A DNA stretch of 64,000 nt, from positions 248,001 to 312,000 of the forward strand of contig NZ_BAABRS010000002.1 of the NCBI RefSeq assembly GCF_039545095.1. Direction: 5' to 3'. Numbering within the stretch: the stretch's first letter is position 1; every line of letters begins with the position of its first letter. Origin of the DNA: Fodinibius salicampi. Its GTDB lineage: Bacteria > Bacteroidota > Rhodothermia > Balneolales > Balneolaceae. The position numbers were made by a program, and so were the translations under genes. Shown here piece after piece: positions 41,191 through 51,774 of the stretch. Below the pieces are notes generated by a model. The model saw nothing but the letters and a program-made list of their open reading frames with translations. It made no database searches and was not told the origin of the DNA.

Positions 41191-42186
41191 ATGGAAACAA
41201 CTGTAAAAGTATTAATCACAGGCGCCGATGGTTTCATCGGTAGTCATTTAACGGAATTATTGTTAGAAGAAGGTTATGATGTTAAAGCCTTTTGTTATTA
41301 TAACTCTTTTAATTCCTGGGGGTGGTTGGATACACTCCAAAAAAATAAGCTGGATGAAATAGAAATATTTACCGGAGATATCCGTGATCCCAATGGAGTT
41401 CGTACAGCTATGCGAGATGTTGATGCTGTATTTCATTTAGCAGCACTGATTGGTATTCCTTTTAGCTACCATTCACCAGATAGCTATGTAGATACCAATG
41501 TCAAAGGTACACTAAACGTCTTGCAAGCTGCACGGGATTTTGACCTTGAAAGAGTGCTCGTAACGTCTACCTCTGAAGTCTATGGTACCGCCCAGTTCGT
41601 ACCTATTACGGAAAAGCACCCGAAACAGGGACAGTCTCCATATTCCGCTTCTAAGATTGGAGCAGATCATATGGCTGAATCGTTCTATAGAAGTTTTGAT
41701 CTGCCGGTTACCATGGTACGGCCTTTTAATACATACGGCCCAAGACAGTCAGCAAGAGCGGTTATACCTACTATTATTACTCAGCTGGCAAGTGGAAAAG
41801 AGGAAGTTGAATTAGGAGATTTATATCCTACAAGAGATTTTGTTTTTGTTAAGGATACTGCAAAGGGATTCTTGGAAGTATCAAAATGTGACGATCTCAT
41901 AGGTGAGGAAGTAAATATCGCCACTCAAAATGAAATCAGTATTGGTGAGCTAGCCGAAGAAATAATTGATCAGGTTAATCCGAATGCCAGCATTGTACAG
42001 GATGAAGAGCGTATTCGCCCTGAAAAAAGTGAGGTCTATCGTTTGTACGGTTCCAAAGAAAAATTAAAGAAATTTACGGGTTGGGTACCTGAATACTCTC
42101 TGAAAAAAGGGATTGAAAAAACAATAGGTTGGTATAGTAAAGAAGAGAATTTACAACAGTTCAAGACGGATATTTATAACATTTGA
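41191..42186 (+). CDS. Nucleotide-sugar 4,6-dehydratase, LegB-like
   Basis: 331 residues, an extended SDR with VLITGADGFIGSHLTELLLE, the active-site STSEVYGTAQFVPITEKHPK and YSASKIGADHMAESF, and RPFNTYGPRQSARAVIPTII. The sequence and length fit LegB, the GDP-GlcNAc 4,6-dehydratase of legionaminic-acid synthesis. The assignment rests mainly on the full gene order that follows: aminotransferase, acetyltransferase, NeuB-type synthase, NeuC-type hydrolase and a CBS-domain guanylyltransferase. It overlaps the next gene at the TGATG junction. Confidence 0.82.
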   Translation: METTVKVLITGADGFIGSHLTELLLEEGYDVKAFCYYNSFNSWGWLDTLQKNKLDEIEIFTGDIRDPNGVRTAMRDVDAVFHLAALIGIPFSYHSPDSYVDTNVKGTLNVLQAARDFDLERVLVTSTSEVYGTAQFVPITEKHPKQGQSPYSASKIGADHMAESFYRSFDLPVTMVRPFNTYGPRQSARAVIPTIITQLASGKEEVELGDLYPTRDFVFVKDTAKGFLEVSKCDDLIGEEVNIATQNEISIGELAEEIIDQVNPNASIVQDEERIRPEKSEVYRLYGSKEKLKKFTGWVPEYSLKKGIEKTIGWYSKEENLQQFKTDIYNI

Positions 42187-43337
42187 TGTCAGATTTAATA
42201 GATAATACCGTCAGTTTTATCAGAGAATATTTTGAAACGAAGGATGTTATTCCTCTCCACGTGCCAAGATTTATAGGAAATGAAAAAGAATATGTAGCTA
42301 ATACCATTGATTCAACTTTTGTTTCTTCTGTAGGTGCTTATGTGGATCAATTTGAAGAAATGATTGCTCAAAAAAGCCAAACGACAAGTGGAGTAGCTAT
42401 TGTAAATGGCACTTCTGCACTACAAGTAGCATTGCGTTTAGCAGGTGTGAAAGATGGGGATGAGGTACTAACCCAGGCCTTGACTTTTGTAGCAACGGCG
42501 AATGCCATTCGATATAACAGAGCTAATCCGGTTTTTTTGGATGTGGATCGCGATACTATGGGACTATCACCTGAAGCTGTAAAACAGTTTTTGGAACAGT
42601 ATGCTGAAGTCCGGGAAGGCGGGTGTTATAATACTAAAACAGGGAATAGAATAGCTGCCTGTGTGCCTATGCATACGTTTGGATTTCCTGTTCATTTGGA
42701 TGAATTACAGGCTGTTTGTAAGGAATGGAATATACCAATCGTAGAAGATGCTGCTGAATCGTTGGGGTCTTTATATAAAGGAAAGCCTACCGGTAGTTTT
42801 GGCCAATTTGGAATATTTTCATTCAACGGCAATAAAATAGTTACCGCTGGTGGCGGTGGAGCTATTGTTACGGATGAGGTAGAAGCCGGACAACATGCAA
42901 AGCATTTAACAACTACGGCAAAGAAGCCCCATGACTACGAGTACTATCATGATGAATTAGGATACAATTATCGTATGCCTAATTTAAATGCGGCATTGAT
43001 TTGTGCACAGTTGGAGCAACTTGATAGATTTATTGAGAATAAGCGTACTTTAGCTGGGAAGTATTCAGATTTTTTTGAGAAAGAAGGGGTTACATTTCGG
43101 ACAGAAAACACGGATACCAAAGTTAATTATTGGTTAATGTGTGTAGAGCTGGAAGATCGAAAACAACGGGATCTCTTTTTAGAAGAAACAAATGATAAAG
43201 GGATCATGACCCGCCCTATATGGCAGCTTATGTATCGTTTGCCTATGTATGAGAATTGTTTCCGGGATGATCAGACGAATGCTGAATACCTGGAAGATAG
43301 GATTGTAAATATACCTAGCAGCGTTTATGTCAAATAG
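42186..43337 (+). CDS. PLP aminotransferase, LegC-like (DegT/DnrJ family)
   Basis: 383 residues from ATG 42186, overlapping the preceding stop by one base. The DegT fold is clear: GVAIVNGTSALQVALRLAGV, ALTFVATANAIRYNRANPVF, IPIVEDAAESLGSLYKGKPT and the PLP lysine in FSFNGNKIVTAGGGG, then NYRMPNLNAALICAQLEQLD. LegC adds the 4-amino group to the 4-keto sugar made by LegB. The length matches LegC rather than the shorter PseC group. It overlaps the acetyltransferase gene by 11 bases. Confidence 0.87.
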   Translation: MSDLIDNTVSFIREYFETKDVIPLHVPRFIGNEKEYVANTIDSTFVSSVGAYVDQFEEMIAQKSQTTSGVAIVNGTSALQVALRLAGVKDGDEVLTQALTFVATANAIRYNRANPVFLDVDRDTMGLSPEAVKQFLEQYAEVREGGCYNTKTGNRIAACVPMHTFGFPVHLDELQAVCKEWNIPIVEDAAESLGSLYKGKPTGSFGQFGIFSFNGNKIVTAGGGGAIVTDEVEAGQHAKHLTTTAKKPHDYEYYHDELGYNYRMPNLNAALICAQLEQLDRFIENKRTLAGKYSDFFEKEGVTFRTENTDTKVNYWLMCVELEDRKQRDLFLEETNDKGIMTRPIWQLMYRLPMYENCFRDDQTNAEYLEDRIVNIPSSVYVK

Positions 43338-43950
43338 CAAGAATATATTATTAGGATATTCTGGACATGCTTATGTAGTTGCTGAGGCCGCTTTTAAAGC
43401 AGGTATAGCAATTCATTATTATGCCGATAAGAAAGAGGCTCAAAATGACCCGTTTAATTTGGATTATTTGGGATATGAAGGGAGTGGTGATTTTAAAGGG
43501 TGGAATGAAGGGTTTGGTTTTATTTTGGGAATAGGAAATAATGATATACGAACCAAGCTTGGTAAATTAGTTACGAATAAAGATGAAGATCTATTGACTG
43601 TTATACACCCATCAGCTGCAATCTCTAAAAGTGCTGATGTCGGGAAGGGTACTTTTGTTTCTTCCCAGGCAAGCGTTAATGCCTTGAGTAACATAGGAAG
43701 ATTTGTAATACTGAATACGAATTGTGTGATTGAACATGAGTGTCATATTGCTGATGGGGCACATGTTGCACCGGGGGCTGTATTAGCAGGAAATGTAAAA
43801 GTCGGGAAAAACTCGTTTATCGGTGCTAATGCAGTTGTAAAAGAAGGAGTTACCATAGGTGAAAATGTAATCGTAGGAGCGGGCGCAACCATTATTAATG
43901 ATATACCTCATAATAAAAAAGTGGTAGGTAATCCGGGTCGAGAAATATGA
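43327..43950 (+). CDS. PglD/LegH-like N-acetyltransferase
   Basis: 207 residues. An N-terminal Rossmann-like part (NILLGYSGHAYVVAEAAFKA) is followed by a left-handed beta helix of hexapeptide repeats (VGKGTFVSSQASVNALSNIG, ADGAHVAPGAVLAGNVKVGK, NSFIGANAVVKEGVTIGENV). The putative catalytic His lies in NCVIEHECHI. Family members put an acetyl group on the 4-amino of UDP or GDP sugars. The context makes it LegH, acting after LegC. It overlaps the synthase gene by four bases. Confidence 0.87.
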   Translation: MSNSKNILLGYSGHAYVVAEAAFKAGIAIHYYADKKEAQNDPFNLDYLGYEGSGDFKGWNEGFGFILGIGNNDIRTKLGKLVTNKDEDLLTVIHPSAAISKSADVGKGTFVSSQASVNALSNIGRFVILNTNCVIEHECHIADGAHVAPGAVLAGNVKVGKNSFIGANAVVKEGVTIGENVIVGAGATIINDIPHNKKVVGNPGREI

Positions 43951-44975
43951 ATTCTAATAAAGTAATAATCATTGCAGAAGCTGGTGTAAATCATAATGGT
44001 GATCGCAGAACGGCGGAAAAATTGATTAAAGTAGCGGCAGAAGCGGGTGCCGATTTCGTAAAGTTTCAGACATTTAATGCAGATAAAATAGTAAGCAGAA
44101 AGGCGAAGAAAGCTGAATATCAGTCAAATAATGTTGAGAGTGGTTCTGATGATCAGTACAGCATGTTGAAATCAGTAGAGTTGAGCGACGAGGATCATCA
44201 ATTTATCATAAAGAAATGTGAAGAAAACAATATCCGGTTTTTATCTACAGCCTTTGATGAAGATGGTATCGACTATCTTGATCAGTTAGGATTGCCCTTT
44301 TTCAAGAGTCCATCTGGAGAAATTACAAACTACCCTTACTTACGAAAGCTGGGACAAAAAGGGAAACCGGTTATCCTTTCCACCGGTATGGCAACCATGC
44401 AGGAAGTGAAGGATGCAATTTCGGTATTAAATGAATTTGGCTTAAAAAAAGAAGATCTTACAGTTCTTCATTGTAATACCGAATATCCTACTCCTATGGA
44501 GGATGTGAATTTAAAGGCGATGAACACGATTGCAGAAGAATTGGATGTTAAAGTGGGATATTCTGATCATACACTGGGAATAGAGGTCCCGATAGCAGCC
44601 GTTGCACGAGGGGCCCAAGTAATCGAGAAACACTTTACACTTGATAGAGAACTGCCGGGACCTGATCACCGGGCCTCATTAGAGCCTAAGGAGTTAAAAG
44701 CAATGGTTGAAGGGATTAGGAATATAGAAAAAGCACTCTCCGGAGATGGCACAAAGAAGCCCAGTAAAAGCGAACAGAAGAATATTGATATTGCGAGGAA
44801 AAGTATTCATTTGGCTAGAAATGTAAAGAAAGGAGACGTTTTGACTGAGAAAGATATCATTCCTCTAAGACCAGGAGATGGGATTTCTCCAATGGAATGG
44901 AATAATGTTATTGGTAAGATGGTATTGAAACCGCTATCAAAAAATGAACAATTAACCTGGGACACGTTGCAGTGA
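43947..44975 (+). CDS. legI: Legionaminic acid synthase (NeuB family)
   Basis: 342 residues starting in an ATGA overlap. The TIM barrel begins IIAEAGVNHNGDRRTAEKLI and FVKFQTFNADKIVSRKAKKA. The metal histidines are in VGYSDHTLGIEV and VIEKHFTLDRELPGPDHRAS. A C-terminal SAF domain (IHLARNVKKGDVLTEKDI) resembles antifreeze proteins, as in NeuB. It condenses phosphoenolpyruvate with a six-carbon sugar to give the nine-carbon acid. All landmark residues of the canonical enzyme are kept, unlike in the second synthase at 47123. Confidence 0.9.
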   Translation: MNSNKVIIIAEAGVNHNGDRRTAEKLIKVAAEAGADFVKFQTFNADKIVSRKAKKAEYQSNNVESGSDDQYSMLKSVELSDEDHQFIIKKCEENNIRFLSTAFDEDGIDYLDQLGLPFFKSPSGEITNYPYLRKLGQKGKPVILSTGMATMQEVKDAISVLNEFGLKKEDLTVLHCNTEYPTPMEDVNLKAMNTIAEELDVKVGYSDHTLGIEVPIAAVARGAQVIEKHFTLDRELPGPDHRASLEPKELKAMVEGIRNIEKALSGDGTKKPSKSEQKNIDIARKSIHLARNVKKGDVLTEKDIIPLRPGDGISPMEWNNVIGKMVLKPLSKNEQLTWDTLQ

Positions 44976-46084
44976 AAATAGGTGTATTAACAAGCTCAAG
45001 GGCAGATTTTGGTATATACCTGCCATTGCTGAAACAACTTAAGGAAGATACGAGTATTACTCTTAAGATCATTGCTTTTGGGACCCATAGCTCGGTCCAT
45101 CATGGGCATACCATTCTAGAAATTAAGGAAAATGGATTTAGCAATATAGATACTATCAGTTCCTTACTGACGAATGATGATGAACAATCTATTGCTACCT
45201 CTTATGGCTTAACGACGATAAAATTTGCTGACTATTGGTCTTCACATACATTTGATTTAGTATTTTGCCTGGGCGACAGGTTTGAGATGTCAGCTGCAGT
45301 ACAGGCCGGCGTTCCTTTTGGAATAACTTTCGCCCATATTCATGGAGGGGAGACTACCCTGGGAGCCATTGACAATGTTTATCGCCATCAAATAACGATT
45401 GCTTCAGAGCTCCATTTTACTTCAACTAAAGAGTATGCTGAAAAGGTTGAGGAGCTGACTGGAACTAATGAAAAGATCTATAATGTAGGTTCATTGAGTT
45501 TGGATGGAATTACTCATATAGAATTAGTGAGCCAGGAAAAATTTAGAAGTAAATTTAATATACCGGAAGGCGATTATATTTTAGCGACCTTTCATCCTGA
45601 GACTGTCGATAGCAGCCATAATGAGAAATATGCTAAAGAAATGGCATTAGCCTTGAAGGCTTTATCTGAGCAGTTTATCATAGTTATTACGATGCCTAAT
45701 GCGGATACTGTCGGAAGCTTATACAGGGGAGAAATACAGAAATTAAAAGAAACCTATCCTGAACATATTGTAGCAGTGGAAAACTTTGGAAAGGAGAATT
45801 ATTTTAGTGCAATGAACTATGCGACTCTGCTTTTAGGAAATTCCTCGAGTGGAATTATTGAGGCTGCTTCTTTTGGTAAATATGTAGTGAATGTAGGTGA
45901 CCGTCAAAAGGGAAGAGCTCAAAGTAACAATGTATTGAACTGTGAATTTGATAAGAGCGGGATACTGGAAACAGTATTTAAAGCGAATGATCTGGGAAGG
46001 TATGAGGGCGAAAATATCTATTTTAAAGAGGACGTAGCAGATAATATTGTAAGAATAATTAAATCATATAATGAGACACTATAA
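44972..46084 (+). CDS. Hydrolysing sugar 2-epimerase, LegG/NeuC-like
   Basis: 370 residues from a GTG at 44972 that overlaps the synthase stop. The family signature is GVLTSSRADFGIYLPLLKQL, LVFCLGDRFEMSAAVQAGVP, HIHGGETTLGAIDNVYRHQI, ATFHPETVD and LLGNSSSGIIEAASFGKYVV. NeuC/LegG enzymes remove the nucleotide and invert C2, giving the free sugar that the synthase uses. It overlaps the next gene by 14 bases. Confidence 0.9.
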   Translation: MKIGVLTSSRADFGIYLPLLKQLKEDTSITLKIIAFGTHSSVHHGHTILEIKENGFSNIDTISSLLTNDDEQSIATSYGLTTIKFADYWSSHTFDLVFCLGDRFEMSAAVQAGVPFGITFAHIHGGETTLGAIDNVYRHQITIASELHFTSTKEYAEKVEELTGTNEKIYNVGSLSLDGITHIELVSQEKFRSKFNIPEGDYILATFHPETVDSSHNEKYAKEMALALKALSEQFIIVITMPNADTVGSLYRGEIQKLKETYPEHIVAVENFGKENYFSAMNYATLLLGNSSSGIIEAASFGKYVVNVGDRQKGRAQSNNVLNCEFDKSGILETVFKANDLGRYEGENIYFKEDVADNIVRIIKSYNETL

Positions 46085-47117
46085 AGAACATCTTATAGAA
46101 AGTGGCACAACTATTAAGGCGGCTTTAAAAGTTTTAGATAAGCTTGCTAAAGATGCTGTTACTTTTATTGTCGATGAAGATGACAAGTTATTAGGATCTA
46201 TGACAGATGGCGACGTGCGTCGTGGCCTGATCAATGATGTCCAAACAGATCAACCCGTTGATGATATCATTCAACCAGATCCCAAATTTATTCGAAAGAG
46301 TAACTATGACATCGAGAAGATCATAGAATATCGTGAAAATAATTTTCAGATACTGCCTATTTTAGATGGAAATGGTCGGGTTATAAATGTCCTTAATTTT
46401 AATTACTTGAAATCTTATCTGCCCGTTGATGTGGTAATTATGGCCGGGGGAAAGGGAACTCGTCTTCGTCCATTGACAGAGGATACTCCAAAACCGTTGC
46501 TGGAAGTGGGGGACAAACCCATCCTTGAGCATAATATTCAACGTTTATCTGAATTTGGAATGGATGATTTTTGGATTTCGGTAAACTATTTGGGAGAGCA
46601 GATTGAGGAATACTTTGGAAATGGGAACCGAAAGAATCTTCAAATAGAATACGTATGGGAGGAAAACCCGCTGGGAACAGCCGGAGCATTGTCCAAAATT
46701 GATAATTTTAAGCACGATTATATACTGCTTACAAACTCAGATATTCTTACAGATTTAAACTATGAAGAATTCTTTTTGAAGTTTGTAAAACAAGATGCCG
46801 ACTTTGGGGTGGTTACGATTCCCTATAAAGTTGATGTGCCCTATGCCGTATTGGAAACATCAAATGGACACGTTATGAATTTTAAGGAGAAGCCTACCTA
46901 TACCTATTATTCGAATGGTGGGATTTATCTGATGAAGCGGGAAGTGGTTGACTATATTCCTAGAGGAGAATTTTACGACACAACAGATTTGATGAAGGAA
47001 CTAATTGAGGATGGGAAAAAAGTATTTTCTTATCCCCATAGTGGGTATTGGCTTGATGTCGGGAAGCATGAAGATTTTGAGAAAGCACAGGAAGATATAA
47101 AACATTTAACTATTTGA
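46071..47117 (+). CDS. CBS-domain sugar-phosphate nucleotidyltransferase, PtmE-like
   Basis: 348 residues. Two CBS motifs fill about 1-115 (FIVDEDDKLLGSMTDGDVRR, FQILPILDGNGRVINVLNFN). A nucleotidyltransferase domain follows with VVIMAGGKGTRLRPLTEDTP and KPLLEVGDKPILEHNIQRLS, then YILLTNSDILTDLNYEEFF. The fusion is characteristic of PtmE, which makes GDP-glucosamine in the GDP-based legionaminate pathway. Its presence is the best evidence that the pathway here uses GDP rather than UDP sugars. Confidence 0.88.
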   Translation: MRHYKEHLIESGTTIKAALKVLDKLAKDAVTFIVDEDDKLLGSMTDGDVRRGLINDVQTDQPVDDIIQPDPKFIRKSNYDIEKIIEYRENNFQILPILDGNGRVINVLNFNYLKSYLPVDVVIMAGGKGTRLRPLTEDTPKPLLEVGDKPILEHNIQRLSEFGMDDFWISVNYLGEQIEEYFGNGNRKNLQIEYVWEENPLGTAGALSKIDNFKHDYILLTNSDILTDLNYEEFFLKFVKQDADFGVVTIPYKVDVPYAVLETSNGHVMNFKEKPTYTYYSNGGIYLMKREVVDYIPRGEFYDTTDLMKELIEDGKKVFSYPHSGYWLDVGKHEDFEKAQEDIKHLTI

Positions 47118-47122
47118 TATTT

Positions 47123-48187
47123 ATGTTACCACAAAATGAACCTTATTTGATTGGAGAAACTGCCTTTCATCATGAAGGGGATATAGATTTTTTAAGAGAT
47201 TTAATTGCCAAAGGAGCTGAAGCAGGGATTGATGCAATAAAATGTCATTTACTATTTGACATAAATGACTACATGATTGACTCTCACAAAGCATTAAAAA
47301 AGCTAGGTGAGATGTGTTTACTAGAGGATCAATGGGATGCAATTTTAGATTTAATTCAAAAAAAGAATATTGATCCTATCTTCTTGTGTAATGATGTAGC
47401 TTCTTTTGATTGGGTAATTCAAAATGATGATCAAATTCAAGCAGCCGAAATACATGCCACAGGTATTAATGATGTGTTTTTACTTGAAAAAGCCGCTGAA
47501 TTTAGGGGAACTATTATTCTTGGTACCGGGGGATCTACTATTGATGAAATTAAATTTGCTGTTGATTTCCTTAAAAAGAGAGATCAGAATGATATTTTTT
47601 TGATGCATGGTTTCCAAAATTATCCGACGGACTATAGGGATGTTATTTTTTCAAAAATGGATATTCTAAATGAAGTTTTTGAACTTCCAGTGGGATATGC
47701 AGACCATACTGATCCGGAAGACGAGTTAAATGAATATATTTCCTGCTTACCGCAGTCTTCTGGCTATAATATACTTGAAAAACATTTTACTTCCTTGCCA
47801 AATGAAGAAAGAATTGATTCACAAGCAGCAGTTAGTGTAGATAGACTGAAAACTATTCGTGAATTGATGGATACCGTTTGGTTAACGAATGGTATTGATG
47901 ATCCTTTAAAAATGTCCCAGGCTGAGCAAAAATATGGTGATGTCGGGCCTATGAAAAAAGCTCTTGTTGCAAGGAATGATCTGGAGAAAGGGACTGAGGT
48001 AGCAATAGAAGATATTGCCTATAAAAGAACGAATAACAGTGTGCCTGTTGAACAAAATGATATCTACAATTTCATTGGTGCAAAAACAGTAGATTATATT
48101 TCCAAAGATACTCCACTCACATACAATAATATAGAGTATCGTTTTAGGAAAGGAGATACATCACAATTTAAACTAGACGAAGATTAA
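47123..48187 (+). CDS. Divergent NeuB/SpsE-like synthase with SAF domain
   Basis: 354 residues from ATG 47123. It has the NeuB plan: a TIM barrel (LIGETAFHHEGDIDFLRDLI, GIDAIKCHLLFDINDYMID), VGYADHTDPEDELNEYI, NILEKHFTSLPNEERIDSQA and a C-terminal SAF-like part (KKALVARNDLEKGTEVAIED). The two metal histidines (ADHT, EKHF) are kept. Other positions conserved in the canonical enzyme are changed: KFQ is KCH, AGVNHNG is TAFHHEG, and the GPDHRAS loop is replaced by RIDSQAA. It may make a different ulosonic acid or use a different acceptor. It precedes an SpsF-like gene, as in the spsE-spsF pair of spore polysaccharide clusters. Confidence 0.8.
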   Translation: MLPQNEPYLIGETAFHHEGDIDFLRDLIAKGAEAGIDAIKCHLLFDINDYMIDSHKALKKLGEMCLLEDQWDAILDLIQKKNIDPIFLCNDVASFDWVIQNDDQIQAAEIHATGINDVFLLEKAAEFRGTIILGTGGSTIDEIKFAVDFLKKRDQNDIFLMHGFQNYPTDYRDVIFSKMDILNEVFELPVGYADHTDPEDELNEYISCLPQSSGYNILEKHFTSLPNEERIDSQAAVSVDRLKTIRELMDTVWLTNGIDDPLKMSQAEQKYGDVGPMKKALVARNDLEKGTEVAIEDIAYKRTNNSVPVEQNDIYNFIGAKTVDYISKDTPLTYNNIEYRFRKGDTSQFKLDED

Positions 48188-48193
48188 GGAACA

Positions 48194-48985
48194 ATGAAGA
48201 TAGGATTTTTAATAACAGCTCGTCTAAAATCAACAAGACTACCTTTAAAATTGTTATTGGATTTGAACGGAAAGCCTATTGTCGAAAGAGTCATTGAGAG
48301 AGCCCGGAAGGTCCAAAACGTTGATGATATTATACTTTGTACATCTACAAATAAACAAGATAAGCCACTAACTGATATAGCTCTTGAAAACAATATTCAC
48401 TATTATTTGGGCAGTGAAAAAGATGTATTACAACGATTGTTGGATGCCAGCCAATTTTTTGGATTAGATTATATTTTGTCTATAACAGGGGAAAATCCTT
48501 TATTTTCTATTAATCATGCTAATAGGGTGGTAGATAATATCAGCCAAAACCGCCCAGACTTTACGTACTTAAAAGGACTGCCAATGGGATGTGCAGTGAG
48601 TGGCATTAAAGTAAAAGCCATGCAAGTAGCCTGTAAGGTCAAAAAAATTATCGATACTGAAATTTGGGGTCCATTAATTAATCAGCCTTCAGTTTTTGAT
48701 GTCGATCAAATTGAAGTCGAGGAGTTTTATCAAAGGCCAGAATTAAGAATTACCACTGACTATATCGAAGATTATCAGTTCATAAATAAATTATATAGTC
48801 ATTTTAATCCCGATGAAATTCCGTCCTTATTTTCGATTTTGGAATTGCTGAATGCCCATCCAGAATATTTGAGAATACATGAAGAACGGACACAAGAACA
48901 GCTTCCTGAGATGAAAATTGAGAAGATAAATACATTCTATGATGAAAATAAGGGTCGAATAGAAAAAATTAAAAATTCTATATAA
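48194..48985 (+). CDS. SpsF-like cytidylyltransferase
   Basis: 263 residues, seven bases after the second synthase. It starts IGFLITARLKSTRLPLKLLL then DLNGKPIVERVIERARKVQN, with ILCTSTNKQDKPL and SITGENPLFSINHANRVVD, as in SpsF/KdsB-type CMP-sugar synthetases. It would activate the nonulosonic acid as a CMP sugar. A normal NeuA/LegF-type synthetase is absent from the locus, so this enzyme probably serves one or both synthases. The C-terminal helix-rich tail is longer than in KdsB. Confidence 0.83.
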   Translation: MKIGFLITARLKSTRLPLKLLLDLNGKPIVERVIERARKVQNVDDIILCTSTNKQDKPLTDIALENNIHYYLGSEKDVLQRLLDASQFFGLDYILSITGENPLFSINHANRVVDNISQNRPDFTYLKGLPMGCAVSGIKVKAMQVACKVKKIIDTEIWGPLINQPSVFDVDQIEVEEFYQRPELRITTDYIEDYQFINKLYSHFNPDEIPSLFSILELLNAHPEYLRIHEERTQEQLPEMKIEKINTFYDENKGRIEKIKNSI

Positions 48986-49002: not shown

Positions 49003-49968
49003 ATGAAGTTTGAGAAGGCAATTTTGCTATCGGGGACTATGAGGTCAGGTACTACTTTAATGTGTAAGATACTTGATTCTTCTCCCTCTATAAATATGGT
49101 TTCAGATGTCTTGAACTGGTTTTGGCATCGTTGTTTAGGACAATATGGAATGATGAATTCGAAATACCAATTAGAAAAGTGTTTTTATGAATTAGAACCT
49201 TTTATAATTTATGGATTAAATGAAGAGCGCAAGGAATTTTTTCTGTCTGGGGAAATTAAAAATGAAATCATTAATAATGGTATCTCATATGAAGAGATAT
49301 ATAGGACTTTTATAAAATATTATAAAAATGGATTAACTCGATTCAATGGCGACAAGACGACCCATAACTACGATAAATATGAGTCTTTTATAACAAAATC
49401 CTCAGATTCCATAATTATACATATGGTAAGGGATGTAAGTGATGTTTTTTATTCCCATAAGAAGAGAGTAGGTGTTAAGAAAAAAAATGATTCTTTTTCC
49501 AAGAAATTGAAAAATGTATCTAATGAGATCAGAAAGGATATAGGGAGGAAGCTCTTAGGAAATAAACATGCTATAGATGTAGGTAATAGAATGTTTACTC
49601 CGTTTGTTTATAAGTATCCGCTAAAAATAGTTGACGAATGGCTCCTTTCTAATTCCGCAGCTCTACATATTAAAGAACAATATCCGGAAAAAATCTTAAT
49701 TATTAAGTATGAAGATTTGGTTACAGATACAACAGAAATACTTGATAAAATTAGTGGAAGGTTAGGCTTGTCAGATAAATTATTTGATATAAATAACCTA
49801 AAAAAAGGCAACAACGAGGATTTTGTTGCCAATTCTTCATTTGAAGAAAATAAGGTTAAGGGAATTCATTCTAAAAGTGTCAACCAAAGTGAAGGGAATT
49901 TAACGGAAAAAGAAAAAAGTTACATTGATAAGAGATGTAGGAAAATTAAAAAGGCTTTAGAATATTAG
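49003..49968 (+). CDS. Sulfotransferase (PAPS-dependent)
   Basis: 321 residues from ATG 49003. The 5'-phosphosulfate loop is AILLSGTMRSGTTLMCKILD near the N-terminus. The 3'-phosphate region is IIHMVRDVSDVFYSHKKRVG, and ILIIKYEDLVTDTTEILDKI is the third typical block. No signal peptide is present, so it acts in the cytoplasm on a carbohydrate precursor. The gene is AT-rich with codon use unlike the genes before 47 kb. It is the first of three unrelated-looking sulfotransferases in the locus. Confidence 0.88.
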   Translation: MKFEKAILLSGTMRSGTTLMCKILDSSPSINMVSDVLNWFWHRCLGQYGMMNSKYQLEKCFYELEPFIIYGLNEERKEFFLSGEIKNEIINNGISYEEIYRTFIKYYKNGLTRFNGDKTTHNYDKYESFITKSSDSIIIHMVRDVSDVFYSHKKRVGVKKKNDSFSKKLKNVSNEIRKDIGRKLLGNKHAIDVGNRMFTPFVYKYPLKIVDEWLLSNSAALHIKEQYPEKILIIKYEDLVTDTTEILDKISGRLGLSDKLFDINNLKKGNNEDFVANSSFEENKVKGIHSKSVNQSEGNLTEKEKSYIDKRCRKIKKALEY

Positions 49969-49970
49969 AT

Positions 49971-50999
49971 ATGAAAATTTTTTTTTGTCTTTCATATTTG
50001 AATATTCCTACTACTATTAGCTTAATTGAAGAAGGAGAAGAAGACTTTAGGGTATTTACTTCTAATAAGAAAATAGAATTTTTTTTTAGTGAGTTATATG
50101 AATCCAATAAGATTTGTTATTTCTCAAAACCGCCCCTTCCTTTTTCAGCTAGGGGGTTAATTTCAATTTTAAGATTATTTGTCAAGAAAAAAATAATACA
50201 AAGTGAACTGAAAAAATATAGACATTGCAAGGTATATATTTTTTTTGTTTCACATTGTTTTTTTGAGGCGTGGATGGTAAAAAAGCTAAGTAAATATAAT
50301 ACTATTTACTATGATCCGGCTGTTACGTTTAAATCCAGAAAATATAATAACAGTTGGAAATCCGTTTTAAAATCGTATTTAATAAGATTGTTGTATGGAG
50401 TTAGTACAGATCCAATAGAATATGGTAAGAAGGTCCTTTATTTAATAAATAAGAAATACCTGAAGAACGTTAGTGCTCAAAAAATAAATATTAACTTCAA
50501 AAAGAAGAATGTAAATAAGATAATTAATGAGAAATTAAAACTTAATAAAGCTGATATATTATTATTAATTGGTGGTACCATAGAATCAGGTTTTGTATCA
50601 AAAGGTAATTATTGTCTCGAAATGGATAGGTTGCTCGCATCTTTGAATGATGAGGGGTTTTCAATAGTTGTTAAGTCACATCCTCGATTTAATCAATTGT
50701 ATTCGTTAGAGAAGAACCAGAAAAAAATCCCAAACTATTTTCCCGCAAACTTAATTTTAAAAAACTATGAATACGTGATAGGTTATTCAACTGCAACCCT
50801 TTTTGAAGCCGCTAATTCTGGAAAAAAGAGTATTTCTCTTTTAAAATACTTTACCCCGAATAATAAAAAACAGGTTGAAGATTCAGTTTCATATTTAAAA
50901 AACAATTTGGAAGAAGGTTATTCAATTTTATTCCCTGAGACTTTATCTGAAATATTAGAAATGTTATCAAGATCAAGTAATGAAGAAAACACTTATTAG
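49971..50999 (+). CDS. Putative nonulosonate (sialyl-type) transferase
   Basis: 342 residues, starting three bases after the sulfotransferase stop. The first half is rich in Lys, Phe and Ile and hard to place. The second half has a GT-B-like C-terminal domain: ADILLLIGGTIESGFVSKGN, FSIVVKSHPRFNQLYSLEK and YEYVIGYSTATLFEAANSGK. The SHP motif and the YSTA serine/threonine pattern resemble bacterial sialyltransferases and polysialyltransferases of the GT38/GT52/GT80 type (known family features). Together with a CMP-sugar supply this suggests it transfers the nonulosonic acid. The assignment is tentative. Confidence 0.5.
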   Translation: MKIFFCLSYLNIPTTISLIEEGEEDFRVFTSNKKIEFFFSELYESNKICYFSKPPLPFSARGLISILRLFVKKKIIQSELKKYRHCKVYIFFVSHCFFEAWMVKKLSKYNTIYYDPAVTFKSRKYNNSWKSVLKSYLIRLLYGVSTDPIEYGKKVLYLINKKYLKNVSAQKININFKKKNVNKIINEKLKLNKADILLLIGGTIESGFVSKGNYCLEMDRLLASLNDEGFSIVVKSHPRFNQLYSLEKNQKKIPNYFPANLILKNYEYVIGYSTATLFEAANSGKKSISLLKYFTPNNKKQVEDSVSYLKNNLEEGYSILFPETLSEILEMLSRSSNEENTY

Positions 51000-51774
51000 G
51001 TTTTATAAGAATCTACGAAACCGGCCAATTAGAAATGATCTAACTATATATGAGGATGATATATTCCTTGTTTCCTACCCTCGTTCTGGGAATACGTGGG
51101 TCAGATTTATTCTGGGGACTTTGCTATCTGACGAAAAGATTACTTGGGAAACGATGGAAAAAGGGATTCCTGATATGTATCGTAATACAGATAAGGAGTT
51201 GAAAGATTTTAAAAGACCCAGAATAATAAAAAGTCACCATTCATTCGATCCCCGTTATAACAAAGTTGTATACCTGGTTAGGGATGTAAGAGATGTAGTT
51301 TTGTCATATTACAATTATCACATAAAATTTAATAAGATATCTGATACTTATCCTCTGGATAGGTTTATCGACAAATTTATGGAAGGAGAGTTAGATGATT
51401 TTGGGAGTTGGAGTGAAAATGTTAAGAGTTGGATTTCTAATAAGAAAGAGGTCGAAAATGGATTTATGTTGTTTCGATATGAGGACCTGAAAGATGATAC
51501 TTTTTCGGAAATCAGGAGAATGGCCGATTTTTTAGGAATTGATCCAACAGATGATGAGGTCCGTGATGCAATTGAGTGGTCTTCATTTTCAAATATGAGA
51601 AAATTAGAAAATGAACAAAGTAATAGTAATTTATTTAATAATTCAGATAAAGAAGTAAAGTTTACCAATAAGGGGAGTTATGGGTATTGGAAACAGGAGT
51701 TAAACAAAGAACAAGTAAGGCTTCTTACGGATAAAAATAAGGAGCTATTAAAAGATTTAGGTTACCAAGCTTAA
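50980..51774 (+). CDS. Sulfotransferase
   Basis: 264 residues, overlapping the preceding gene by 20 bases. The PAPS loop is DIFLVSYPRSGNTWVRFILG, the 3'-phosphate motif KVVYLVRDVRDVVLSYYNYH, and FMLFRYEDLKDDTFSEIRRM and NKGSYGYWKQEL complete the Sulfotransfer_1 pattern. The histidine in IIKSHHSF is a candidate catalytic base. It belongs to the same fold as eukaryotic cytosolic sulfotransferases, more than the first enzyme does. The target is probably a sugar of the nearby glycan. Confidence 0.9.
   Translation: MKKTLIRFYKNLRNRPIRNDLTIYEDDIFLVSYPRSGNTWVRFILGTLLSDEKITWETMEKGIPDMYRNTDKELKDFKRPRIIKSHHSFDPRYNKVVYLVRDVRDVVLSYYNYHIKFNKISDTYPLDRFIDKFMEGELDDFGSWSENVKSWISNKKEVENGFMLFRYEDLKDDTFSEIRRMADFLGIDPTDDEVRDAIEWSSFSNMRKLENEQSNSNLFNNSDKEVKFTNKGSYGYWKQELNKEQVRLLTDKNKELLKDLGYQA

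Follow-up and report, generated by a model that had tools for sequence, protein, structure and literature searches.

A divergent NeuB-fold protein paired with an SpsF-like cytidylyltransferase points to an undescribed step in the synthesis of a sialic-acid-like sugar

The window analysed here, a whole stretch of 64,000 nucleotides of Fodinibius salicampi DNA, carries a tightly packed operon on the + strand in the order LegB, LegC, LegH, LegI, LegG, PtmE-like, NeuB2, SpsF-like. LegH is the name that presumably applies to the product of 43327..43950, and the product of 46071..47117 is taken to be PtmE. The genes are as follows.

41191..42186, + strand: LegB 4,6-dehydratase (TIGR04180, 510.8 bits; cut-off 475)
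42183..43337, + strand: LegC aminotransferase (TIGR04181, 539.6 bits; cut-off 420)
43327..43950, + strand: LegH/NeuD-type acetyltransferase (TIGR03570, 191.2 bits; cut-off 160.8)
43947..44975, + strand: canonical NeuB-family synthase, LegI by context (TIGR03569, 477.7 bits; cut-off 399.65)
44972..46084, + strand: LegG/NeuC-type hydrolysing 2-epimerase (TIGR03568, 365.8 bits; cut-off 235.9)
46071..47117, + strand: PtmE-like protein, CBS plus sugar nucleotidyltransferase
47123..48187, + strand: NeuB2, a divergent NeuB-fold protein with a C-terminal SAF domain and changed PEP-surrounding residues (ATG start; alternative TTG start at 47114)
48194..48985, + strand: SpsF-like cytidylyltransferase (PF02348), presumed CMP activator

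The original prediction of a canonical LegI at 43947 is confirmed: the protein passes the cut-off of the N-acetylneuraminate synthase equivalog TIGR03569 and lies in the context of LegB and LegC, both above their own cut-offs. Likewise, the second, divergent protein of NeuB-like synthase fold, followed by an SpsF-like activator, is real, with an intact reading frame (47114-48187 from TTG, or 47123-48187 from ATG) and a pairing that is conserved in relatives. NeuB2 scores 100.4 bits against PF03102 (cut-off 22.1) and 28.1 bits against the SAF domain PF08666 (cut-off 21), and falls far under the NCBIfam equivalogs, reaching 129.9 of 399.65 bits for N-acetylneuraminate synthase (TIGR03569) and 87.6 of 340.25 bits for PseI (TIGR03586). 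Its AlphaFold2 model (36 sequences, mean pLDDT 93.0, pTM 0.83) is matched best by NeuB structures in VIA-align (6ncs, Z 33.1, rmsd 1.9 over 254 residues; 2wqp, Z 33.0, rmsd 4.7 over 328 residues), with KDO8P and DAHP synthases next among the matches listed (Z 22.5-24.9). The predicted NeuB fold, the PF03102 score above cut-off and the SAF domain place NeuB2 in the NeuB family. The closest NeuB2 is a protein of Fodinibius roseus (86%), and for this single pair dN is 0.068 and dS 0.460. Together with the conservation of the protein in 36 relatives, these values rule out chance, and the low dN/dS of the one pair and the conserved residues of the clade also exclude a decaying duplicate. A search for a mobile origin gave no phage match, and 18 plasmid records match at only 21-30% identity, the annotated ones being NeuB or PseI.

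Relatives were collected with a profile of four NeuB2 proteins, which yielded 45 named loci (L034-L078). In a tree built from 81 NeuB-family proteins of these loci, with duplicates (L005, L007, L044), four fused proteins and short pieces excluded, NeuB2 is resolved as one group of 37 proteins with a support of 100/100. The members belong to Bacteroidota (24), Pseudomonadota (6), Balneolota (2), Omnitrophota (1) and Bacillota (1); the window, L006 and L049, the last from a bin named as a DPANN archaeon, carry no assigned group. A second tree, made with 44 chosen proteins and without B. subtilis SpsE, has a 98/96 branch that separates NeuB2 (13 proteins), SpsF-linked kin (5) and SpsF-fused kin (4) from 22 others, among them NeuB of N. 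meningitidis, PseI of C. jejuni and the PDB chains 6ncs and 3g8r. The phylogeny that had been suggested as a test thus came out against a placement inside a characterised NeuB clade, which both trees exclude. Within the phylum, 4 of 394 sampled genomes have a match below E 1e-39, and 23 others match at 1e-23 or weaker.

The original prediction had further stated that NeuB2 keeps both metal histidines and the SAF domain but replaces the KFQ, AGVNHNG and GPDHRAS elements of the substrate site. The histidines H198 and H224 are indeed present, the metal histidines are invariant in 37/37 proteins of the clade, and the SAF domain is recognised at the score given above. All three motifs are changed as well (KFQ to KCH, AGVNHNG to TAFHHEG, GPDHRAS to RIDSQAA), but the catalytic-site residues E25, K53 and D247 in or beside them are retained, and the strongest change lies elsewhere, around PEP, at 110, 129, 182, 184 and their neighbours. 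These numbers are those of N. meningitidis NeuB, onto which NeuB2 was aligned. In that enzyme PEP adjoins positions 110, 129, 131, 132, 182 and 184, of which 132, 182 and 184 are described as less conserved in the available text (PMC7371886), and an inhibitor is surrounded by Glu25, Gln55, Asn74, Thr110, Phe112, Lys129, Asn184, Tyr186, Ser213, His215, Glu234, Phe288 and Arg314 according to the accessible part of a second source (PMC6795526). At five of the six PEP-surrounding positions, none of the 37 NeuB2 proteins has the residue of N. meningitidis NeuB: T110 is replaced by L (28) or M (9), K129 by E (31) or D (6), a reversal of charge, and G131, C182 and N184 by H, G and Q, respectively, in 37/37. 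The exception is 132, which is S in 24 and A in 13. In addition, S154 and S213 are replaced by G and A, each in 35/37. By comparison, K53, H215, E234, H236 and D247 are kept in 37/37, E25 in 36/37 (one gap) and the equivalent of R314 in 25/37, and H114, G140, G166 and Q168 of NeuB2 appear as new invariant residues of the pocket.

Lys129, E25 and K53 are found in 71/71 canonical proteins, 38 from the relatives' loci and 33 from control loci, with the exclusion of a single long-branch protein of L048. In these proteins, position 131 is usually P, A or G and position 184 usually T or S, and no listed variant equals the NeuB2 residue. As 131, 182 and 184 vary among canonical enzymes too, the sharp losses are those at 110 and 129, plus S154 and S213. 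The SpsF-linked kin outside the NeuB2 clade (5 unfused, 4 fused) keep K129 and share C182G and N184Q with NeuB2; the lysine at 129 is also kept in the PDB chains 6ncs and 3g8r. NeuB2 therefore has the metal histidines and E234 of nonulosonic acid synthases in 37/37 and departs from their PEP residues, above all at 110 and 129. As judged from the alignment, NeuB2 seems to retain the metal centre and some of the sugar side and to have its PEP side rebuilt, which suggests that it no longer binds PEP. On the other hand, compensation elsewhere in the pocket could offset a negative residue at 129.

The SpsF-like protein scores 82.7 bits against PF02348 (cut-off 22.6), has as its nearest solved chain the cytidylyltransferase 6oew (E 4.9e-19), and remains below the equivalogs kdsB (42.3 of 155.2 bits) and PseF (19.9 of 205.7 bits); the name SpsF for 48194-48985 derives from the original prediction and from likeness rather than from an SpsF-specific model or an alignment with B. 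subtilis SpsF. Neighbourhoods were counted in 36 NeuB2 loci, excluding the window and L044 (identical to L043), over stretches of ~5 to 21 kb. LegI occurs in 31 of them, PtmE in 30 and SpsF in 34, and the two loci without SpsF (L035, L056) reach a contig edge just past NeuB2. The predicted presence of SpsF instead of NeuA/LegF after NeuB2 is hence real and conserved: SpsF stands beside NeuB2 in 34/34 loci with a continuing contig, as its direct neighbour in 33 and one gene off in L042. The order is NeuB2-SpsF in 23 loci and SpsF-NeuB2 in 11 (L061-L071). Moreover, 4 of the 45 loci encode one-chain NeuB-SpsF fusions among the kin outside the clade (L060, 581 aa; L076, 584 aa; L075 and L078, 592 aa), and a separate synthase of the NeuB family lies near each of them. 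That NeuB2 and SpsF constitute a conserved two-gene cassette is well supported.

Several variations were observed around the cassette. The NeuB2 genome G434 has a second cluster (L143:7256-8920) in which a fused NeuB-SpsF of 554 aa lies beside another NeuB-family synthase. On a Pelagibacteraceae-labelled contig (L052:1038-3371) SpsF is extended by ~500 residues to a total of 777 aa, and in the DPANN-labelled bin a radical SAM/SPASM protein (L049:3361-4359), whose similarity cluster spans four loci, lies directly 5′ of NeuB2. In the loci with reversed order (L061-L071) no LegG was found, and in eight of them a protein of ~270-310 aa (cluster c14; e.g., L061:5783-6616) precedes LegI. The one c14 member scanned has no Pfam or NCBIfam match; this protein could replace LegG in L061-L071. 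In the window, two genes of the sulfotransferase family (49003-49968 and 50980-51774) are located 3′ of the cassette, so the glycan may be sulfated.

The NeuB2-SpsF pair occupies the slot of LegF, the CMP-legionaminate synthetase. LegC exceeds its curated cut-off in 39 of the 394 phylum genomes, four of which are the NeuB2 genomes; the remaining 35 supplied control clusters (L083, L090-L123), to which three E. coli clusters were added. LegI is present in 29 of the 35, and 27 of these 29 match the LegF model and none carries NeuB2; the LegF-model match of L104 is a weak one (34 bits) to a KdsB-like protein. The two LegI controls without LegF are L103, on a 4-kb contig, and L118. In the legionaminic cluster of L118 (7499-9261), a Gfo/Idh-like protein and SpsF fill the LegF slot, with PtmE present and both NeuB2 and LegF absent. 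A known-structure E. coli O-antigen carrying NeuB2 was also sought: one DNA query gave 28 genomes, and the three clusters examined (L087-L089) have LegF and lack NeuB2. Overall, LegF occurs in 1/36 NeuB2 loci vs 30/32 controls, one of the latter being the weak KdsB-like match (Fisher p 8e-16), under a LegF model of six proteins of which four come from controls (L083, L087-L089) and match by construction. The sole LegF among the NeuB2 loci lies ~6 kb upstream in L048, beside another NeuB-like gene. Within the phylum sample, the absence of overlap between 4 NeuB2 clusters and 27 LegF clusters among 33 has a chance of 4e-4, or 9e-4 with 26; as the NeuB2 and control sets were chosen differently and related loci are not independent, all these p-values are descriptive. 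A cluster from the same family as the window (L083), whose LegI and PtmE are close to those of the window, has LegF exactly in the position of NeuB2-SpsF. In F. roseus, a PseF-like gene lies in a neighbouring pse-type cluster just beyond the counted stretch (L079).

The same pattern extends to whole genomes. The genome of the window (completeness 98.53%) has two PF03102 matches and a single PF02348 match, which is SpsF. A search at E 1e-10 covered 19 more NeuB2 genomes (completeness given for 3/19; the genome of L046 lying outside the set); of these, 14 have exactly two PF03102 matches and, besides SpsF, either no other PF02348 match (2) or one (12); the 12 extra proteins all match the kdsB model, and the one shown in detail exceeds its cut-off. 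The five remaining genomes carry additional nonulosonic clusters: G436 and G437 have LegF-like genes, G423 has a PseF-like gene, and G124 and G434 have another gene of the SpsF type. Thus, 15 of the 20 NeuB2 genomes, that of the window included, have two NeuB-family matches, retain LegI and possess SpsF as their only non-KdsB PF02348 match, which implies that the LegI product should pass through SpsF. The interpretation given in the original prediction is supported in part; it had overlooked the change of the PEP surroundings next to a retained metal site and some retained sugar contacts, the replacement of LegF and the position of SpsF as the only PF02348 gene found in the genome.

A third gene recurs near the cassette. 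DUF386 proteins occur in 16/36 NeuB2 loci vs 0/32 controls (p 5e-6), as found with a model derived from the members in the NeuB2 loci themselves and over flanks whose lengths differ between the sets. E56, H58, D63 and H121 are invariant in 16/16 and are probable metal ligands. In E. coli, the DUF386 protein YhcH opens cyclic Neu5Ac and so feeds its aldolase; in the available text, the authors claim this anomerase role for a subset of the family (PMC8141875). DUF386 is absent from the genome of the window, and none was found in 20/36 NeuB2 loci. Two other candidate partners specific to NeuB2 show no enrichment, namely Gfo/Idh (10/36 NeuB2 loci vs 12/32 controls) and SDR (15/36 vs 15/32).

The altered PEP side, the preserved metal and sugar side, the single activator, the exclusion of LegF and the association with an anomerase family together suggest that NeuB2 works on the product of LegI. 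LegB, LegC, LegH, LegG and LegI would build a legionaminic-type nonulosonic acid by the usual route. NeuB2 would then act on this acid or its open-chain form through its retained metal site and sugar contacts, independently of PEP, and SpsF would turn the altered acid into its CMP derivative. We favour this reading tentatively and consider it quite possible, though somewhat short of probable. From these features we infer PEP independence, the position after LegI, the type of reaction and CMP as the activating group. As to the chemistry, C4 would most plausibly be epimerised through a metal-dependent retro-aldol/aldol isomerisation of the keto-acid end, NeuB2 possibly being a 4-epimerase, and the DUF386 protein of 16/36 relatives' loci may help to supply the open form. 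C4 epimerisation is favoured since it needs only these elements and since the partner synthases make acids that share the keto-acid end; most are LegI-like, and that of L065 falls among proteins on the side of C. jejuni PseI, which suits an action of NeuB2 on the part common to both acids. The second or altered nonulosonic acid of the original prediction remains the likely outcome.

The evidence does not point in one direction only. SpsF stands without NeuB2 in L118, 5/20 NeuB2 genomes have further nonulosonic clusters, and in the accessible text on B. subtilis SpsF acts with a single synthase (PMC7439481), all of which count against a step after LegI. Two loci of kin with Lys129 (L059, L073) contain both a NeuB-SpsF and a LegI-LegF pair and would suit a second synthase pair instead. 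NeuB2 would in that case be a second PEP-dependent synthase, with a pocket rebuilt for a different aldehyde, and SpsF would activate its product, with two acids, or one plus the LegI product, as the outcome. This is rather unlikely: although the fold and metal site are those of the NeuB family and kin outside the clade keep Lys129, five of the six PEP-surrounding positions are changed in 37/37 proteins with the charge reversed at 129, one enzyme would have to activate both acids in the 15/20 genomes that keep LegI and have SpsF as the only PF02348 candidate, and no recurrent extra gene for a hexose precursor was recognised among neighbours of which many are unannotated.

The changed PEP residues could also reflect a non-catalytic partner that regulates LegI, forms a mixed dimer with it or delivers its product to SpsF. 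LegI is near NeuB2 in 31/36 loci and SpsF in 34/36, distant kin are fused to SpsF, and a mixed dimer is conceivable given that N. meningitidis NeuB is a domain-swapped homodimer, as described in the available part of its report (PMC6795526). The metal histidines and E234, conserved in 37/37, and the new invariant H114, G140, G166 and Q168 suggest catalysis, however, and the association with DUF386 would go unexplained; such a role is quite unlikely, and the conservation of metal ligands and new pocket residues in 37/37 argues in particular against the regulator of LegI that had been envisaged. It is very unlikely that SpsF takes over from LegF by itself, with ordinary legionaminic acid as its substrate and NeuB2 as a passenger or a protein unrelated to activation. 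L118, which has PtmE, the Gfo/Idh-like protein and SpsF and lacks both NeuB2 and LegF, would fit such an arrangement, as would the requirement of B. subtilis spsF, assigned to CMP activation, for spore-surface legionaminic acid (PMC7439481, available text) and the proposal that an SpsF-like domain replaces the missing NeuA in a Pse cluster (PMC7371886, available text); yet NeuB2 and SpsF adjoin each other in 34/34 loci with a continuing contig, do so in reversed order as well (L061-L071) and are fused in related paralogues.

Returning to a step after LegI, the fullest version of this reading would make NeuB2 the first enzyme of the NeuB fold to work without PEP, namely a metal-dependent C4-epimerase operating by retro-aldol cleavage and re-closing on the other face, with a DUF386 anomerase that can supply the open form and SpsF as the dedicated CMP synthetase of the epimer. 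Taken as a whole, this version is unlikely. If true, acids of the 4-epilegionaminic type would have a candidate enzyme in NeuB2, and the NeuB family would gain a new catalytic branch, present in bacteria and at least one archaeal bin. 4-Epilegionaminic acid itself is known from nature (PMC5595891), and no paper on an enzyme for it was found among the matches listed. A figure legend in the accessible part of the same source places it among acids with pathways not involving lga genes, a grouping that counts against a post-LegI epimerase. More broadly, NeuB2-SpsF points to an undescribed step in the synthesis of sialic-acid-like sugars and perhaps to an unrecognised sugar. NeuB-family genes serve to predict which sialic-acid-like sugar a microbe makes, and a NeuB2 that occurs in several phyla, has an altered PEP pocket and takes over from the gene normally used for activation would render these predictions incorrect, or leave them incomplete, in the organisms concerned.

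Among the open-licence matches listed, no second NeuB paralogue paired with SpsF was found; in the available text on Moritella, two NeuB genes are assigned to two different pathways (PMC7371886). With the LegI/NeuB/PseI synthases (PF03102 plus SAF), NeuB2 has in common the fold, the metal histidines, E25, K53, E234, D247, the SAF domain and, in 25/37 proteins, the equivalent of R314, but it differs at five of the six PEP-surrounding positions, in its equivalog scores and by its separate clade. The legionaminic acid pathway of B. subtilis likewise combines a NeuB-family enzyme, SpsE, with an SpsF assigned to CMP activation; as far as described in the accessible text, its six enzymes include one synthase, unlike the LegI plus NeuB2 of the window (PMC7439481), and the SpsE structure 1vli is matched by the window's LegI with 171.8 bits vs 54.0 bits for NeuB2. 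Altered nonulosonic acids are also made with the Acinetobacter EpaA-EpaB module, which has its own CTP_transf_3 domain in EpaA (PMC12053666), and with the aci/ela modules, listed without lgaG (PMC5595891, PMC9676051); in the available portions of these sources, however, the enzymes are aldo-keto, short-chain or other oxidoreductases and no NeuB paralogue is described. In a Pse cluster, an SpsF-type cytidylyltransferase is proposed to take the place of the canonical one, as in the window, but this SpsF-like domain is joined to an aldo-keto reductase domain, and the accessible text describes no adjacent NeuB paralogue (PMC7371886). Finally, legionaminic clusters of the E. coli O161 type and those at the level of Balneolaceae run through LegC, LegI, LegG and PtmE to an activator, as the operon in the window does, and have a canonical cytidylyltransferase where the window has NeuB2-SpsF.
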